A DNA stretch of 38,769 nucleotides from Candidatus Cloacimonadota bacterium. Lineage in GTDB: Bacteria; Cloacimonadota; Cloacimonadia; Cloacimonadales; JAJBBL01. The notes beneath the pieces are model-generated. The model saw nothing but the letters and a program-made list of their open reading frames with translations. It ran no database searches and was not told where the DNA came from. Below are positions 8,813 through 18,681 of this stretch, in pieces. The DNA lies in assembly GCA_019429305.1 (NCBI GenBank), contig JAHYIR010000019.1, forward strand, positions 1 to 38,769. Reading direction: 5' to 3'. A program made the position numbers and the translations under genes. Position 1 is the stretch's first letter; each line of letters begins with the position of its first letter.

Positions 8813-9916
8813 TTACCTGAGTTTAATGGTTGCTAAACCTATTGCTGCGAATAGTGCAGCTATGATCCAAAACCGAACGACGATTTTTTCTTCCGGTATC
8901 CCTTTCTTTTCAAAGTGATGATGCAAAGGGGCACAAAGAAATACTCGTTTCCCTGTACCTGTTTTAATTCGCGTATATTTGAAATAGTACCTTTGGATTA
9001 AAGTAGATAGTGCTTCCATAATAAATACACCACAAACAATAGCGAAGAAGATTTCTTCCTTTAGTAAGAGAGCTAAAGTAGCCATGATGCCGCCCAGAGT
9101 GAGAGAACCAATATCTCCCATAAATACTTGAGCAGGTTTAGAATTAAACCACAGAAAACCAAGAATAGTACCAATGATCGCTGCGATAAAAACAGTCAAT
9201 TCTCCCGCTTCACGAATAAAATTCAGTTGCAGGTATTCTGAGTGATTAACATTACCCTTAATATATGCCATGACACCGAGAGCCAGAGCCGCTATCGCCA
9301 GAGTACCTCCCGCTAATCCATCTAATCCATCGGTAATATTAACAGCATTCGAAGTTCCGACGATCATCACTACTACAAAGGGGAAATACAACCAACCCAA
9401 AGGAAGCAAAAAATCTTTGAAAAAGGGCACACTAATAGTCGTGAAAGCTTGTCTGTCCGAAGTTCCAAGATAAATTGCCAACACTACAATTACTGAGAGG
9501 GAGATCTGACCGATCAGCTTATAACGAGCTATTAATCCCTTCTTATAATTCATCATGTTCTTCAGGTAATCGTCAATAAAGCCGATACCACCCAACCAGA
9601 AAGCAACCAGAAGCATTATGAGTACATAGCTGTTAGTCAGATTATTCCACAAGATAACAGCTAAAATCAAAGCTGTAAGGATGATCAAACCACCCATTGT
9701 CGGTGTACCGTTTTTACTTTGATGCGTCTCCGGAACATGCTCATTTATCGTCTCTACAACCTTGCCCTTTTTCAGCATTCTGATCATTTTGGGACCAATA
9801 AAGAGAGAGAAAAGCAAAGCAGTGATAAATGCAGCGATTGCCCTGAATGTGACATAACGGAAGACATTGAAAATTATAGATTGCTCTACTAAGGGCGAAA
9901 AAAGATGATACAACAT
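8813..9916 (-). CDS. mraY: Phospho-MurNAc-pentapeptide translocase MraY
   Basis: MraY transfers phospho-MurNAc-pentapeptide to undecaprenyl phosphate, making lipid I. It is a 367-residue, roughly ten-helix membrane enzyme. Visible motifs are the early THQSKNGTPTMGGL loop, the magnesium/substrate segment FIDDYLK, NITDGLDGLAGG, and the histidine-rich APLHHHFEKKGIPE loop near the C-terminus. All expected acidic residues are present. Its ATG shares one base with the murE-murF stop (TAATG), so translation is likely coupled to the fusion protein. Confidence 0.97.
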   Translation of the reverse strand: MLYHLFSPLVEQSIIFNVFRYVTFRAIAAFITALLFSLFIGPKMIRMLKKGKVVETINEHVPETHQSKNGTPTMGGLIILTALILAVILWNNLTNSYVLIMLLVAFWLGGIGFIDDYLKNMMNYKKGLIARYKLIGQISLSVIVVLAIYLGTSDRQAFTTISVPFFKDFLLPLGWLYFPFVVVMIVGTSNAVNITDGLDGLAGGTLAIAALALGVMAYIKGNVNHSEYLQLNFIREAGELTVFIAAIIGTILGFLWFNSKPAQVFMGDIGSLTLGGIMATLALLLKEEIFFAIVCGVFIMEALSTLIQRYYFKYTRIKTGTGKRVFLCAPLHHHFEKKGIPEEKIVVRFWIIAALFAAIGLATIKLR

Positions 9917-12900
9917 TACAACCTTCCTTTGATTTTTTCGAGGTGAATACTATGAGAACCCTTGATGAGTATGACAGCTTTTTTTGCTAAATGAGCGAGA
10001 AGATCCGAAGCTAAAAGAGCTTCGACATTCTTAAAGTGTCTTTCTCCTTCATATAGCTTAGATAGATTTCCTACGGTAATTATCTGAGGTACTATTTGAT
10101 GATGTTTGCTCCTATCAGTTATATGATCCCTTATCTCCAGATGATATTTTTCTGAATCGTTACCTAATTCCAACATATCTCCGAGAATAGCAATATGAGG
10201 TTCTTTTTTCTCACGTAGCAACCAATAATCTATTGCCAGTTTCATACTGATAGGATTGGCATTATAACAATCTGAGATAATCAGACGATCTTTTTCGTAA
10301 TAGATCTCCATTCTGTCTTGGAGCGATACTGGTAAATCTAATCCTGACTGTATAGTCTCTCTCTCAAACCCGAAGTTTTTAGCAAGAGCAACTGCAAAAG
10401 CTGCATTAAGAATGTTAAAAGGTAGATCAGAAGCAATCTTGTATGATTCATTATTGAGCACAAACCTACTGTTATTTTGAGCCAGATCTATTATCTTAAC
10501 AATATAGTTTTTATGGTGTTTAACCCCTTTTTCTTCAAAACCTATCCGTAATAGATTTCCAGGAAGATCATCAAAATAAGGATCGTGAAGTGGTATCAGA
10601 GCAAACCATAAATCTCGCTTCAAGAGAGCACTCTTTTCGCGAAAGACCCCATCCAGATCCTGTAAAAACTCTAAATGAGATGGTCCAATGTTAGTGATAA
10701 TTGCTATTTCTGGTTCACAGATGTCGGCTAATCTCTGAATTTCTCCGAAATGGTTAGAACCCACTTCGATAATTGCCATGTATTGATAACTTGATAGCCT
10801 GAATAGCGTTTTGGAGACGCCTAAAATGTTATTCTCATTGGCAAAATTTTTCAGCACGGGTTGTGATTTAATCGATAAGATATTATAACAGTATTCTTTT
10901 GTTGTAGTTTTCCCACTACTTCCTGTTATTGCAACAATCGGTACATTAAAGAGAGAACGATACTTCTTTGCTAATAGAGAATAGGCATCCTGCGCATTAT
11001 TAACCCTAATGATCCTTTGAGAATCTAATGTATTCTTCACACCTTCAAATTCAAAATCTTCATCAACAACAGCCCAGTTATTCTTAAATTTTAGAGCTTC
11101 TGAGACGTACTTATGTCCATCAAAGTTTTCACCCCTGAGAGCAAAAAAGAGAGAATTGTCACCTATAGTTCGTGTGTCTGTTGACACACTTTGAAATGTC
11201 AAATTAAGTTCTGTTAGCCCCCTACTCCTGAGAAGTTCAATTCGTGAGCTGTTATCGTATAACATTATATTCTTATTGGTTTTTTGTTGCTGAGAGCAAT
11301 AAGCATCGAAATCCCTATTTAACTCCAGCAGCAATCTAACCTGTATTAGATCAAGAGGTACCGATGTTCTTATAGAAGCTGGTGAATGGGATAAACAGAA
11401 ACTAACAGGAGCATCGCTCTCTCGTTCCCTCGCTCTCCGCCCTTCGCCTTTCGCCCCCTCGTATCTTTTACTTATGGCATCCTGACTGATCAGATAGTCA
11501 TCGAAGGGAATTTTTCCCGAGGAGAGCTCTTGATAGGTTTCGTGCCCTTTACCGGCAATGAGCAAGATGTCTTTCTTGCTGATCAAACTGATAGCAGTTC
11601 GAATGGCTTCCTCACGATCTACTACAATCCAGTAGTTTGACAAAGGATGAAGGTGACCGATCAGATCAATAATTATATCAAGCGGATTTTCACTTCTTGG
11701 ATTATCCGATGTGATGATAGCATAGTCTGCATGTTGCAGGATAGCATTAGTCATCTCCTTTCTTTTCCCTTTATCCCTATCTCCTCCAGCACCAATAACA
11801 GTGATCAGTCTTCCTTTTGTCTCAAATTCCGATAGGTCACGGTTTTTTCCCTGCAGTACACTTTTAAGAGTGCTGCAAACTGTCTTCAAGGCATCGGGTG
11901 TATGGGCATAATCGATATAACAAGAGATGTTATGATCATTTGCTACTTTTTGCAATCTACCTTTGATATAAGTTGGCAATGAAGTGGTTATTCTATCTAA
12001 ATCGAGTTGAGGAGCAGCAATTTTGCTTGCTGTTACAGCAGCCGCTATATTGAAAGCATTATGCACCCCTAATAAATGAGTTGAAATTTTTATAGATTTC
12101 TTCTGATCTTTGATGCTATCAGTAAACATTTTATCAGTCAGATCCAAGTTGAATATAGTTTCTGACAGATCTCTTTTATCAACCCGAAATGATATATCCC
12201 CCTCAGTTTGTTCCGAAATAGAGTATTTTGCTCCTTGATACTCATTGTATAACTTTTTCCCATAAGGGTCATCTATGTTGATCAGGGCTACACTGGCTTT
12301 GTCCTTTAGATATTTGAAGAGCTTCTTTTTACTTTGATAGTAATCTTCCATATCTTTATGAAAGTCTAAATGTTCCCGGGTTAGATTAGTAAACACTGCT
12401 ATATTAAATTTAAGTCCATATACACGATCGAGTTTCAGGGCATGTGATGAGACTTCCATTACTACGAATTTGATCTTTTCCTGCCGCATTTTTTGCAAAA
12501 TTTCATTCAATTCAGTTATATCAGGAGTTGTACGTTCCAGCGAATAATGTTCACCATTGATTGAATAACCCAAAGTACCGATCGTCGCAACTGATAATCC
12601 CTGTTTCAGCATGATGTTTTCTATGATCTTGACGATTGATGTCTTCCCGTTTGTCCCGGTAACACCGATAAGAAAAAGATCTGCAGAAGGGTCATTCAGA
12701 TAGAGAGCAGCTAATAAAGCTAAAGCTTTTCTGGTATCCGAAACAACGATTTGTCTAATCTTATTTTCTGTATCTTCTTGCTCGCAGATGATCAATTTAA
12801 TACCATCTTCTATTGCCTGTTTGACAAATCTATGACCATCAAAATTACTTCCTCTGATACAGACAAAGGATCTGATAATTCGTTCTTCGCCCATCGCCCT

Positions 12901-13044
12901 TCGCGCCCTCGTATCTGTGACAGGATAATCTACTAATAGAGAGTAATCATCAACTGAAATATTCCGGAGTGTTCTAAATAATCCGGCAGATCTCAGTTGA
13001 TCAATGACCTCTCTTAGAGTTATAGATTTGCTTTGATCCTGCAT
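9916..13044 (-). CDS. murE-murF: MurE-MurF fusion ligase
   Basis: A single 1042-residue frame encodes two successive peptidoglycan ligases. MurE (about 1-526) adds the third residue. Its ATP loop GVTGTNGKT is at 127-135, and DNPRSE in its C-terminal domain points to meso-diaminopimelate. MurF (about 594-1042) adds D-Ala-D-Ala and has its own ATP loop ITGSSGKTTTKEY near 703-715. The MurF part is full length from an internal Met594. The 65-residue linker is low-complexity and partly encoded by a G-rich heptamer array (KRYEGAKGEGRRARERE). A second heptamer array interrupts MurE just after the conserved DTR (44-46) and adds about seven residues. MurE-MurF fusions are known elsewhere, for example in Bordetella. 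The ATG overlaps ftsI by 25 bp and no strong Shine-Dalgarno is visible. Confidence 0.95.
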   Translation of the reverse strand: MQDQSKSITLREVIDQLRSAGLFRTLRNISVDDYSLLVDYPVTDTRARRAMGEERIIRSFVCIRGSNFDGHRFVKQAIEDGIKLIICEQEDTENKIRQIVVSDTRKALALLAALYLNDPSADLFLIGVTGTNGKTSIVKIIENIMLKQGLSVATIGTLGYSINGEHYSLERTTPDITELNEILQKMRQEKIKFVVMEVSSHALKLDRVYGLKFNIAVFTNLTREHLDFHKDMEDYYQSKKKLFKYLKDKASVALINIDDPYGKKLYNEYQGAKYSISEQTEGDISFRVDKRDLSETIFNLDLTDKMFTDSIKDQKKSIKISTHLLGVHNAFNIAAAVTASKIAAPQLDLDRITTSLPTYIKGRLQKVANDHNISCYIDYAHTPDALKTVCSTLKSVLQGKNRDLSEFETKGRLITVIGAGGDRDKGKRKEMTNAILQHADYAIITSDNPRSENPLDIIIDLIGHLHPLSNYWIVVDREEAIRTAISLISKKDILLIAGKGHETYQELSSGKIPFDDYLISQDAISKRYEGAKGEGRRARERESDAPVSFCLSHSPASIRTSVPLDLIQVRLLLELNRDFDAYCSQQQKTNKNIMLYDNSSRIELLRSRGLTELNLTFQSVSTDTRTIGDNSLFFALRGENFDGHKYVSEALKFKNNWAVVDEDFEFEGVKNTLDSQRIIRVNNAQDAYSLLAKKYRSLFNVPIVAITGSSGKTTTKEYCYNILSIKSQPVLKNFANENNILGVSKTLFRLSSYQYMAIIEVGSNHFGEIQRLADICEPEIAIITNIGPSHLEFLQDLDGVFREKSALLKRDLWFALIPLHDPYFDDLPGNLLRIGFEEKGVKHHKNYIVKIIDLAQNNSRFVLNNESYKIASDLPFNILNAAFAVALAKNFGFERETIQSGLDLPVSLQDRMEIYYEKDRLIISDCYNANPISMKLAIDYWLLREKKEPHIAILGDMLELGNDSEKYHLEIRDHITDRSKHHQIVPQIITVGNLSKLYEGERHFKNVEALLASDLLAHLAKKAVILIKGSHSIHLEKIKGRL
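11411..11463 (-). repeat. G-rich heptamer array in the MurE-MurF linker
   Basis: On the minus strand the sequence starts TACGAGGGGGCGAAAGGCGA and continues as degenerate 7-mers (GCGAAAG, GCGAAGG, GCGGAGA, GCGAGGG and decayed units). The first 34 columns agree with the array in the MurE N-terminus (12875-12913) at about 29 positions. The array is translated as a charged Arg/Glu/Gly stretch from Tyr528, in the inter-domain linker. Confidence 0.7.
12875..12913 (-). repeat. G-rich heptamer array inside the MurE coding region
   Basis: The minus strand reads TACGAGG, two extra bases, then GCGAAGG, GCGATGG, GCGAAGA and ACGAATT. It matches the ftsL-ftsI spacer copy (15247-15284) at about 33 of 39 columns with one gap. 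It codes for ARRAMGEERII directly after the conserved DTR motif. Three heptamers total 21 nt, so the reading frame is kept. Confidence 0.75.
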
Positions 13045-15285: not shown

Positions 15286-15624
15286 TCACCTTGTTAATGC
15301 TTCAGCAGAGGTTGTTATAGGATCGAGGAAAGTGAAGAAGGTTCTATTACTTCTCACATCCTGATAGATCACATGGACATTATCCGGATCAGTATGATTA
15401 AAGATCATATCCAGCTCATTCGTCGCTATCTCAACAATACGGCTGTAAGATCTTAGTTCATCGTAAGTAGATGTCAAATCATCGTTAGTCGCCTTTTCTC
15501 CCTTCAACTCAGAGTCTATTCCCAGAATATTTTTGTTAGTCATAACAATTTCGTTTTTCAGGCGAAACTGGATATAGATAGAAAAAAATATCAGGACTAT
15601 TAAAAAGAGTAACTTAGGTTTCAT
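15286..15624 (-). CDS. ftsL: FtsL-like cell division protein
   Basis: A 112-residue bitopic protein with a transmembrane helix at about 3-20 and then a polar, heptad-like segment of about 45 residues. This is the normal FtsL/DivIC layout. FtsL forms a coiled coil with FtsB and connects FtsQ to FtsW-FtsI. Primary sequence is poorly conserved in this family, so the call depends on size, topology and position between rsmH and ftsI. AAGGAG stands 6-7 nt before the ATG. A 226-bp gap containing a long stem-loop and heptamer repeats separates it from rsmH. Confidence 0.85.
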   Translation of the reverse strand: MKPKLLFLIVLIFFSIYIQFRLKNEIVMTNKNILGIDSELKGEKATNDDLTSTYDELRSYSRIVEIATNELDMIFNHTDPDNVHVIYQDVRSNRTFFTFLDPITTSAEALTR

Positions 15625-15795: not shown

Positions 15796-15863
15796 CTGAT
15801 TACTGATTACCGATCACTGCTTTTAAGCTTCCTCTGGTTTTCACTAATAACTAATAACTATTT
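15796..15863. repeat. Degenerate heptanucleotide repeats at the rsmH 3' end
   Basis: The plus strand reads CTGATTA, CTGATTA, CCGATCA, CTG (15796-15819), and after 23 bp ACTAATA, ACTAATA, ACT (15843-15859). The second array overlaps the rsmH stop codon, contributing its last residues. Such arrays resemble the short tandemly repeated heptamers (STRR) described from cyanobacterial genomes. Confidence 0.6.
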
Positions 15864-16783
15864 ATTCTCTCTGCTACCCGCATCTTAGCACTTCTTGCCT
15901 GCCTATTCTCTGCAACTTCTTCCGGTGATGGCAGTAACGGTCTTTTTGTTATGATCTTTAACTTTTTTTTCTTATTACAAATACATTTGGGAAACTTGGG
16001 TGGACAGATACATTCTTTCTCTTCCTGAACAAACAGTTGTTTCACTGTTCGGTCTTCTAAGCTATGATATGAAATAACAACGATTCTTCCGGTCGGATTT
16101 ATTAATTCTACTGCATCATAAAGAGCTGCTTTTAATGCTTCCAACTCCCCATTGATATAGATCCTGATCCCTTGAAATATTCTTGCCTTGGCTTTTATTT
16201 TATAAGCTGAGTGAGTACTCTTATCAATGATCTCACTCAAATCTAAAGTTGTCTCGATCGGACGGATCTGACGCTGTTTAATGATACCTAAAGCTATCCT
16301 GTACGCCTCTCTCTCTTCACCATATTCTCTGAATATCTTGGTTAATTCTTCTAATGAATAGGTGTTAACAACATCGTGAGCAGTCAGTTCATCTTGTTGG
16401 TTCATTCTCATGTCTAATCTACCATCAAGATCAAAACTCATTCCCCGTGATGGTGTTGAGATCTGACTAAATGAAACTCCCAGATCAAATAATATACCAT
16501 CAATTTTGGTTATTCTCTCCAAAGCAAGCCGTGATCTAATATTGACAAAATTATCATTAAAGATCAAAAATCTTTCTCTGTTCGACTCTTTTAAGTTATG
16601 ATTATGTCTGATCGCCTCTTCATCCCGGTCGAAAGAATATAATCTCACAGTTTTGTTTGCCTGCAAAATTGCTGATGAATGCCCTCCGCCACCCAAAGTA
16701 GCATCAACATAGATCCCATTATCTTTCAACGCTAAATAGGAGATTGCTTCCTTCAGCATGACAGGTTTATGATAGTGGATCAT
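15851..16783 (-). CDS. rsmH: 16S rRNA (cytosine-1402-N4)-methyltransferase RsmH
   Basis: RsmH (MraW) methylates N4 of C1402 in the decoding centre of 16S rRNA, using S-adenosylmethionine. The 310-residue product has the SAM-binding motif DATLGGGGHSSAIL (27-40), the conserved GILFDLGVSF and SRGMSFDLDGRLDMRM segments, and a C-terminal YHSLEDRTVKQ motif. Length is typical. Its ATG overlaps the mraZ stop (ATGA), as in most dcw operons. The stop codon lies inside a heptamer array (ACTAATA units on the plus strand). Confidence 0.97.
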   Translation of the reverse strand: MIHYHKPVMLKEAISYLALKDNGIYVDATLGGGGHSSAILQANKTVRLYSFDRDEEAIRHNHNLKESNRERFLIFNDNFVNIRSRLALERITKIDGILFDLGVSFSQISTPSRGMSFDLDGRLDMRMNQQDELTAHDVVNTYSLEELTKIFREYGEEREAYRIALGIIKQRQIRPIETTLDLSEIIDKSTHSAYKIKAKARIFQGIRIYINGELEALKAALYDAVELINPTGRIVVISYHSLEDRTVKQLFVQEEKECICPPKFPKCICNKKKKLKIITKRPLLPSPEEVAENRQARSAKMRVAERINSY

Positions 16784-17223
16784 GAGCGGTAACTTAGTGC
16801 GTTGAATCTGTCTGAATGAAATTGTAGTTTCTTCTTTCTTTCTTCTCTGAATTTCTCAGGATTCCAGAGAGATATGTAATCACCTTCACCTTTGATGATC
16901 ACTGAATCTTTTATACCAACATCTTCTAAGAGAAAACTATCGATCCTGATCCGTCCAGGACCTTCTAATTCCCGTTTTGATAAAGCAAAATCGATCAGAC
17001 TATTCATAAACAATTTATCATTTTCATCACCTTTCTTCAAGCGGTCAATCAGGGCATTCCAGTTATCTAAGGGATATACCGCCAGATTAGTACCATCTGA
17101 ACCTATTGTGACAATGACACTCTGCTTGGATGCAGCACTAAAATTCTTCTTAAAAACTGCAGGGAGAGTGATTCTGTTGTTATGAACAGCATTCTCGAAA
17201 ATTCCTAAAAATTCACCAGACAT
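16780..17223 (-). CDS. mraZ: Transcriptional regulator MraZ
   Basis: MraZ is a ring-forming AbrB-like (swapped-hairpin) DNA-binding protein that represses the dcw operon in the species studied. I chose the start at 17223 (MSGEFLGIFEN) because GGAGG lies just upstream and the N-terminus then matches the family. A longer frame to 17250 is open. The product is 147 residues with two repeats. The first carries HNNRITLPAVF where the family usually has DDKGRLTLPAKF, so the recognition segment is altered. The second reads GPGRIRIDSFLLEDV. Five 10-bp-spaced TTGAC-like units lie 33-76 bp upstream and are the likely autoregulatory operator. It is the first gene of the operon. Confidence 0.93.
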   Translation of the reverse strand: MSGEFLGIFENAVHNNRITLPAVFKKNFSAASKQSVIVTIGSDGTNLAVYPLDNWNALIDRLKKGDENDKLFMNSLIDFALSKRELEGPGRIRIDSFLLEDVGIKDSVIIKGEGDYISLWNPEKFREERKKKLQFHSDRFNALSYRS

Positions 17224-17255
17224 TTGACCTCCAGTCACCACGACAATCATCTCGT

Positions 17256-17299
17256 TGACTGTATTTGAATATCTTTGACAATTCGTGACAAAAATTGAC
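17256..17299 (-). promoter_or_regulatory. Candidate MraZ operator: five units at 10-bp period
   Basis: On the plus strand TGAC or TGAA starts at exactly 17256, 17266, 17276, 17286 and 17296 (units TTGACT, TTGAAT, TTGACA, GTGACA, TTGACT). MraZ boxes in other bacteria are also short direct repeats at 10-bp period (TGGGN plus 5 nt), usually 3-4 copies just upstream of mraZ. Spacing and position match; the unit sequence differs. Binding is inferred. Confidence 0.65.
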
Positions 17300-17408
17300 T
17301 AGAAGATTAAAACCGTCAAGCATTATTTTTAAAAGAAACAAGATTTGTTCTGAATTCTAAGATAAGCTATGTACAAAAGTATAAGTCATAACTATGGTAG
17401 TTAAAGAG

Positions 17409-17450: not shown

Positions 17451-17512
17451 AGGGAGCACACGAGCCGGCCAAGGCCGACTCGTGTGCTCCCTAAAGAGAT
17501 GCTATATTTAGA
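17451..17512. repeat. 42-nt palindrome plus conserved 20-nt tail (copy 1)
   Basis: The hairpin pairs AGGGAGCACACGAG (17451-17464) perfectly with 17479-17492, continues with CGGCC/GGCCG after one mismatch, and has an AA loop. The tail to 17512 contains ATATTTAGA. The copy at 36050-36111 has the same total length, the same CTCCCT end and ATATTTAGA at the same offset, but a different, still paired, stem. Confidence 0.75.
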
Positions 17513-17577: not shown

Positions 17578-18681
17578 ATGAAAATATCCTGTATAGACAC
17601 TCCGGCTCTGATAATTGATTATAATATTTTGCAAAGAAACTTAAAGATGATGGCATTACTGGCAGATTCAGTAGGGATAAAGCTAAGACCACATATCAAA
17701 ACGCATAAGATTAATGAAATTGCTCTGGAACAAATCACTTTGAGTGATAATGGAATTACAGTAGCCAAATTGAGTGAAGCGGAAGTAATGAGTGAAGCAG
17801 GTATCAATGATATTCTCATAGCCAATGAAATAATCGGTGAGCAAAAAATTAGACGACTAAGTCGTTTATGCATAAACAATTGTATACAGGTATGTGTTGA
17901 TAGCTCGGAAGGAGTAAACCAATTAGAACAATATCTAGATTTGAAAGATAGAAAACTGGGAGTATTGATCGAAATCGATACCGGAATGAATCGTTGTGGG
18001 TTGTCGGCAGCTGCAGACATCGTTAAATTAGCTCGTTTAGTGATTAATTCAGAGAAATTGCAATTTAGAGGGATTTTAAGTCATTCAGGAAATATTTATA
18101 GTTCAAAGAGTAGGGAAGAGGTTCAACAGATAGCAGAAGAAGAAGTGCAGACAATGTGTTATATTGCTGACGAGTTAATATCTTGCGGAATTAAGGTTAC
18201 AGAGGTTAGTATTGGTTCGACACCGGCTGCAATATTCTTAGAAGAAGCTCGAGGAATCACCGAATTTCGTCCGGGTAATTATGTTTTTAATGACAATATT
18301 CAGGTTTCATTGGGCGTAACGACTGTAGAGAACTGTGCACTAACTGTCATCTCAACAGTCATCAGCAAACCTACTGAGGATAGAATTATTATAGATACTG
18401 GGAGTAAATGTTTAGGATTGGATAAGGGTGTGCATGGTTCACAGTTGATAAAGGGTCATGGTTTATTGAAGGAATATCCTGAGATATTAATCGAACGGTT
18501 GTCGGAAGAGCATGGAATTTTGAGAGTTAATAAAGATCATGAAATCCAGATAGGAGATAGATTGACAATCATACCTAATCATGCCTGTTCAGTAATGAAC
18601 CTCTTTGACGACGTTTATGTCGTCAAAGAGGCTCAAATATATGCTAAATGGCAAGTTGTTGCCAGAGGTAAAGTAACCTAA
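17578..18681 (+). CDS. PLP-dependent D-threonine aldolase / D-serine dehydratase-like enzyme
   Basis: A 367-residue member of the fold-type III family (alanine-racemase-like barrel plus a metal-bearing C-terminal domain). It probably cleaves or deaminates a D-3-hydroxyamino acid. The PLP lysine is likely Lys41 in RPHIKTHK (37-44). GSTP provides the phosphate-binding loop. His335 and Cys337 in NHACSVMNL match the divalent-metal ligands of DSD1/D-threonine aldolases, which separates it from plain alanine racemases. The start is supported by GAGG 7 nt upstream. A perfect 13-bp inverted repeat lies in its last codons. It is convergent with the formate dehydrogenase gene, with 4 bp between stops. 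Substrate cannot be told from sequence. Confidence 0.88.
   Translation: MKISCIDTPALIIDYNILQRNLKMMALLADSVGIKLRPHIKTHKINEIALEQITLSDNGITVAKLSEAEVMSEAGINDILIANEIIGEQKIRRLSRLCINNCIQVCVDSSEGVNQLEQYLDLKDRKLGVLIEIDTGMNRCGLSAAADIVKLARLVINSEKLQFRGILSHSGNIYSSKSREEVQQIAEEEVQTMCYIADELISCGIKVTEVSIGSTPAAIFLEEARGITEFRPGNYVFNDNIQVSLGVTTVENCALTVISTVISKPTEDRIIIDTGSKCLGLDKGVHGSQLIKGHGLLKEYPEILIERLSEEHGILRVNKDHEIQIGDRLTIIPNHACSVMNLFDDVYVVKEAQIYAKWQVVARGKVT
18600..18631. repeat. Perfect 13-bp inverted repeat inside the PLP-enzyme gene
   Basis: CCTCTTTGACGAC (18600-18612), a 6-nt spacer, then the exact complement (18619-18631). On the minus strand it lies 55 nt beyond the formate dehydrogenase stop, so it may form the 3' end of that long leftward transcript. 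No U tract follows on either strand. The encoded residues NLFDDVYVVKEA look normal for the family. Confidence 0.8.

Follow-up and report, generated by a model that had tools for sequence, protein, structure and literature searches.

We identified an array of five direct repeats directly upstream of mraZ in a Candidatus Cloacimonadota genome, which most likely serves as the autoregulatory operator of the mraZ/dcw (division and cell-wall) operon, bound by MraZ to repressive effect and switched in its DNA specificity through a change in the recognition loop of the protein. MraZ is among the most widespread bacterial regulators and heads the cell-division operon, and its operator has so far been described from a few model species, with boxes of the TGGG/GTGG type. 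The array studied here is a variant of this known operator, written in a different word. It lies in a stretch of 38,769 nucleotides, hereafter the window.

A five-unit array in the mraZ promoter

17256..17299, minus strand: operator array of five units (from period, shuffles, genome scan and conservation)
First bases 17299, 17289, 17279, 17269 and 17259, minus strand: units GTCA, GTCA, GTCA, TTCA and GTCA, respectively
17314..17319, minus strand: -35-like box TTGACG (from the sequence and an alignment of relatives)
17227..17232, minus strand: Shine-Dalgarno-like GGAGGT preceding the start codon of mraZ (from the sequence)

On the mraZ coding strand, positions 17299-17256 read GTCAAtttttGTCACgaattGTCAAagataTTCAAatacaGTCA, comprising five units spaced by exactly 10 bp. 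The initial annotation had read the array on the plus strand as five copies of TTGAC, with TGAC/TGAA starting at 17256, 17266, 17276, 17286 and 17296. These positions are exact, as are the copy number and the period, but the core of the unit is TCA rather than TTGAC, since the A after TCA, equivalent to the leading T of the plus-strand word, varies among the units. As mraZ is encoded on the minus strand (CDS 17223-16780), the functional five-base reading is therefore GTCAA/GTCAC/GTCAA/TTCAA/GTCAA, with TCA invariant throughout.

At a period of 10 bp the array had a column-wise score of 16.7, whereas none of 5,000 dinucleotide shuffles exceeded 10.3; scores at the remaining periods lay between 0.4 and 8.8, the highest value being a harmonic at 20 bp. 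A scan of the 2.39-Mb genome for five K-TCA units at period 10, with up to two mismatches allowed, returned a single match, the window array itself with zero mismatches, while the reversed control pattern returned none across the same genome.

The first unit starts 20 bp downstream of the first base of the TTGACG box. The -10 element of the window is weak (AATTTT at a 17-bp spacer), relatives carrying TATAAG-like boxes at this place, and a consensus promoter scan of the window listed no mraZ promoter. A structured RNA leader of a known type was considered and rejected, as the region has no Rfam match. Between mraZ and the divergent gene, positions 17451-17492 form a near-perfect hairpin, AGGGAGCACACGAGCCGGCC-AA-GGCCGACTCGTGTGCTCCCT, whose arm recurs at ~16 genomic places (21 arm matches, compared with 0 for the reversed control); this hairpin is a repeated palindromic element.

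MraZ and the head of the dcw cluster

16780..17223, minus strand: mraZ, 147 aa, with a start (MSGEF) common to relatives (Pfam, AlphaFold2, Foldseek, alignments)
15851..16783, minus strand: rsmH (mraW), directly after mraZ, presumed operon (Pfam PF01795, E 1.5e-106)
15286..15624, minus strand: small ftsL/divIC-like division gene, presumably in the same operon (PF04977, E 8.3e-6, just under the cut-off)
15248-13020, minus strand: FtsI-type gene (assigned by eye)

The minus strand of the window thus carries the head of a dcw cluster, in which mraZ comes first and directly precedes rsmH. A single ORF of 1042 aa at 9916-13044 resembles, by eye, a MurE-MurF fusion with two nucleotide-binding motifs (GKT/GKTT).

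The window MraZ matched PF02381 with 35 bits (cut-off 23), the match covering the first repeat only. Its AlphaFold2 model (pLDDT 88.6) predicts the MraZ fold, built of two AbrB-like repeats, and a Foldseek search of this model retrieved 9sz7, 9r4j and 1n0f over about the full length, with E-values down to 5e-10. The predicted structure accordingly resembles the MraZ proteins of Mycoplasma genitalium and M. pneumoniae, including the M. genitalium protein in complex with a four-box promoter. The second repeat reads ELEGPGR and retains the ExxGR motif. In the first repeat, the near-universal DxKGR signature, which lies outside Pfam's definition of the family, is absent: residues 13-17 read VHNNR in place of (L/I)DxKGR. 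The replacement of DDKGR by HNNR had already been recognised in the initial annotation, and the alignments additionally revealed that the loop is one residue shorter than the canonical form. In E. coli, MraZ needs its repeat-1 arginine (R15) to bind DNA.

Equivalence to the canonical GTGG operator

A domain-wide sample of 97 mraZ loci from other families (L101-L197), subjected to a de novo period-10 search, typically carried AGTGG(G) at period 10 in the same place, mostly in three units. Among 92 loci retaining the loop aspartate, the coding-strand unit recovered de novo was A-G-T-G-G-g-a-a-A-A, typically in three copies. These results bear out the expectation that known MraZ operators are direct repeats at 10-bp spacing with a TGGG-like unit, the unit found in the outgroup being GTGG(G). 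The window array shares with the GTGG/TGGG-type operator its 10-bp direct repeats, its location in the mraZ promoter and its coding-strand orientation, but its units (GTCA/TTCA) lack the GTGG/TGGG core and number five instead of three to four. The window array is thus the counterpart of the GTGG operator as regards place, orientation and period, and departs from it in the word.

The E. coli MraZ boxes (Eraso et al. 2014, as cited in PMC8475190) are likewise coding-strand direct repeats at 10 bp, located at the promoter just upstream of mraZ, where the E. coli locus (L199) reads TTGACA-18-TAAACT-7-GTGGGAAATT GTGGGGCAAA GTGGGAATAA. In E. coli, however, three GTGGG units start after the -10 box, whereas in the window five (G/T)TCA units start 20 bp from the -35 box and overlap the -10 region. 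The Mollicutes boxes, given as AAAGTG[T/G] repeats in the account of Fisunov et al. 2016 in PMC8475190, are also direct repeats upstream of mraZ read by a regulator of the same family; their core is AGTG, and the loop of the M. genitalium protein, DNKNR, keeps D, K and R, in contrast to the GTCA core and VHNNR loop of the window. Chains of the M. genitalium MraZ-promoter complexes (PDB 9r4j and 9sz7, 4-box) match the predicted window fold with query TM-scores of 0.66-0.75, although their four boxes carry another word. We found no structure in which MraZ occupies a CA-type operator, and a non-exhaustive literature search returned neither a CA-type, non-GTGG MraZ operator nor a description of MraZ in Cloacimonadota.

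Conservation across Cloacimonadota

Among 125 Cloacimonadota genomes examined, mraZ was recognisable in 99, and in 67 of the 71 of good quality. The conservation set comprised 98 loci of two orders, each represented by mraZ and the DNA upstream of it; 87 of them carried a significant period-10 array of [GCT][TG]CA upstream of mraZ, usually with 3-6 units and downstream of a TTGAC box. Arrays were absent from some divergent mraZ loci (e.g. L064) and from one ordinary locus (L027).

With the TTGAC box as the anchor of the alignment, order 1 loci, which have R-type loops, yielded the consensus TTGACAagAAaaa.g..aTgTCATAtAaG.gtCAcaGgAtGTCA.AAAAagTCA.AaAAtgTCAaAa, in which the -35 box is followed after 17 bp by a TATAAG-like -10 and units stand at offsets 19, 30, 40, 50, 60 and often 70. 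At offsets 30-60 the dinucleotide CA was present in 96-100% of these loci, compared with 0% three bases away, and mean information reached 1.25-1.56 bits at the TCA phases versus 0.5-1.0 elsewhere. Conserved period-10 units between variable flanks are what the initial annotation had named as support for an operator, and the related genomes display precisely this. The pattern of order 1 recurs in loci whose loop is of the KW type, with CTCA as the word, and in order 2, with GGCA/GTCA/TTCA. The distance from unit 1 to unit 2 is often 11 bp in relatives (e.g. L003, L024), with unit 1 overlapping the -10 box, and 10 bp in the window.

Exact four-unit BTCA repeats at period 10 in 59 relatives lay mostly upstream of mraZ, the exceptions being repeat arrays and a small number of unrelated matches. 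At similar stringency, Cloacimonadota arrays had a median of 4 units, with 44% reaching at least five, compared with a median of 3 and 15% for canonical GTGG arrays; these lengths are lower bounds, as each count ends at the first missing unit. The five units of the window may, as the initial annotation proposed, contact more faces of the MraZ ring than three or four would.

In one family (f13: L058, L061, L062, L063), mraZ is followed immediately by another MraZ-like gene, which matches MraZ in its second half and has a divergent first half (MKVSIGQIMQFKKIKGVKLPEG...) that lacks the loop. A separate genome (G019) encodes a very divergent MraZ and carries TTCATAWRAA arrays with a 10-bp period at several places far from mraZ (contigs C9, C18, C78 and C119).

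Recognition loop and operator word

The DxKGR signature is altered throughout Cloacimonadota, where the loop reads VHKQR, VHNNR, VHNQR, VTNRR (order 2) or VNKQKW (one family), the R-type loops being one residue shorter than the canonical form. The altered loop beside an altered operator, first remarked on in this window, is therefore present but is a feature of the phylum and not specific to this genome.

GTGG arrays occurred in 87 of 103 outgroup loci that have the K of KGR, in 0/52 outgroup loci without it and in 0/98 Cloacimonadota loci. Counted by family, the same three groups gave 76/89, 0/16 and 0/13 (Fisher 8e-18; 2e-11 without Cloacimonadota). Where the loop aspartate is lost and the lysine kept, GTGG was retained in 12 of 13 loci. 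A significant GTGG array was lacking at 16 of the 103 canonical-loop loci, and one locus (L169) scored as CA-type.

Within Cloacimonadota, the two bases before CA vary with the loop. VNKxKW loops were accompanied by CT in 100% of 82 units, i.e. CTCA; HNxR/SNxR loops by 84% GT and 1% CT; HKQR/NKQR loops by 45% CT and 38% GT; and xNRR loops by 39% TT, 35% GT and 19% GG. Because VHKQR keeps a lysine two residues before the arginine, the rule must involve more than the lysine. Parallel associations were found elsewhere. In one other phylum, TMTDKGR occurs with AGTGGCATAA (GTGGCA) and TMTKTGR with ATGGCATAT (ATGGCA), and ISKTGR/ISDNGR go with GGCA/GTCAT; in a second, INDAGR occurs with TTGGCATAA, ISETGR with ATGGTATAA and FDEAGR with ATGTCATAA. 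Together, these pairings suggest a simple, readable code between the MraZ loop and its DNA word. They also suggest, from comparison of the repeats, that GTCA lines up with positions 3-6 of GTGGCA, given that GGCAT and GTCAT mix in register and that the intermediate GTGGCAT exists. A straight in-place substitution of GTGG by GTCA is a possible route, but the mixed arrays and the intermediate favour the former alignment.

The loop-word association is phylogenetically nested. An MraZ tree built with the loop columns removed gave, in its best form, ~7 changes of loop type, only 3 of them well-supported independent contrasts; GTGG followed the loop in about two of these and moved in the opposite direction in none, and a sign test on the 3 contrasts was not significant. 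The proposal of co-evolution made in the initial annotation is thus upheld in that altered loops and altered words occur together across the phylum, within it and in two other phyla, but the relationship is a correlation supported by few contrasts.

Alternative explanations and proposed mechanism

The small number of well-supported contrasts and the non-significant sign test leave a minor share of probability to a reading in which the MraZ operator is real while loop and word drifted independently, their correlation reflecting the shared ancestry of a few lineages. Such drift would not readily produce the graded, parallel shifts seen in another phylum (from TMTDKGR with GTGGCA through TMTKTGR with ATGGCA to ISKTGR with GGCA/GTCA), nor the finer correspondence, within Cloacimonadota, between the loop and the base preceding TCA.

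Somewhat less likely still is that the array serves another regulator, the role of MraZ having been lost or changed in Cloacimonadota. The divergence of MraZ in this genome, with its Pfam match confined to the first repeat and its canonical loop lost, would be compatible with such a change. Yet the array coincides in place, period and orientation with GTGG MraZ operators, variation in its bases tracks the MraZ loop both within Cloacimonadota and elsewhere, and in the window genome a five-unit array occurs only at mraZ.

Finally, a chance run, phased A-tracts that curve the DNA, or -35 boxes belonging to the divergent plus-strand gene at 17578 can be set aside as highly improbable: the region is AT-rich, two plus-strand units are TTGACA-like and a plus-strand promoter scan found TTGACT-16-GACAAT at 17255-17282 (9/12, within chance expectation), but chance is refuted by the shuffles, none of which reached the observed score, TCA is conserved between variable spacers, and across the phylum the array tracks mraZ, locked to its own TTGAC box.

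We therefore favour an MraZ-bound autoregulatory operator. MraZ would occupy the five adjacent units at intervals of one helical turn, covering the -10 region and the transcript start and so repressing its own dcw operon. Its specificity would have moved from GTGG to the CA-containing (G/C/T)(T/G)CA, and we propose that the word switched because the repeat-1 recognition loop changed, the canonical DxKGR lysine having been displaced or lost and the loop shortened by one residue in most of the phylum. A more specific version, towards which we lean only slightly, holds that the loop lysine specifies GG, that the lineages in which it was lost or displaced, Cloacimonadota and two or more other phyla, turned in parallel to GGCA/GTCA/CTCA words, and that Cloacimonadota arrays lengthened to as many as 5-6 boxes extending over the -10. 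If so, these longer arrays would imply either a changed stoichiometry between ring and DNA or a tighter switch.

A phylum-wide change of word that follows a few loop residues and has parallels in other phyla renders DNA reading by AbrB-type rings testable and MraZ operators predictable in uncultured lineages. The two other phyla described above (L200-L259) combine non-canonical repeat-1 loops with mixed GGCA/GTCA/GGTA MraZ operators and are suited to stepwise tracing of the specificity change.
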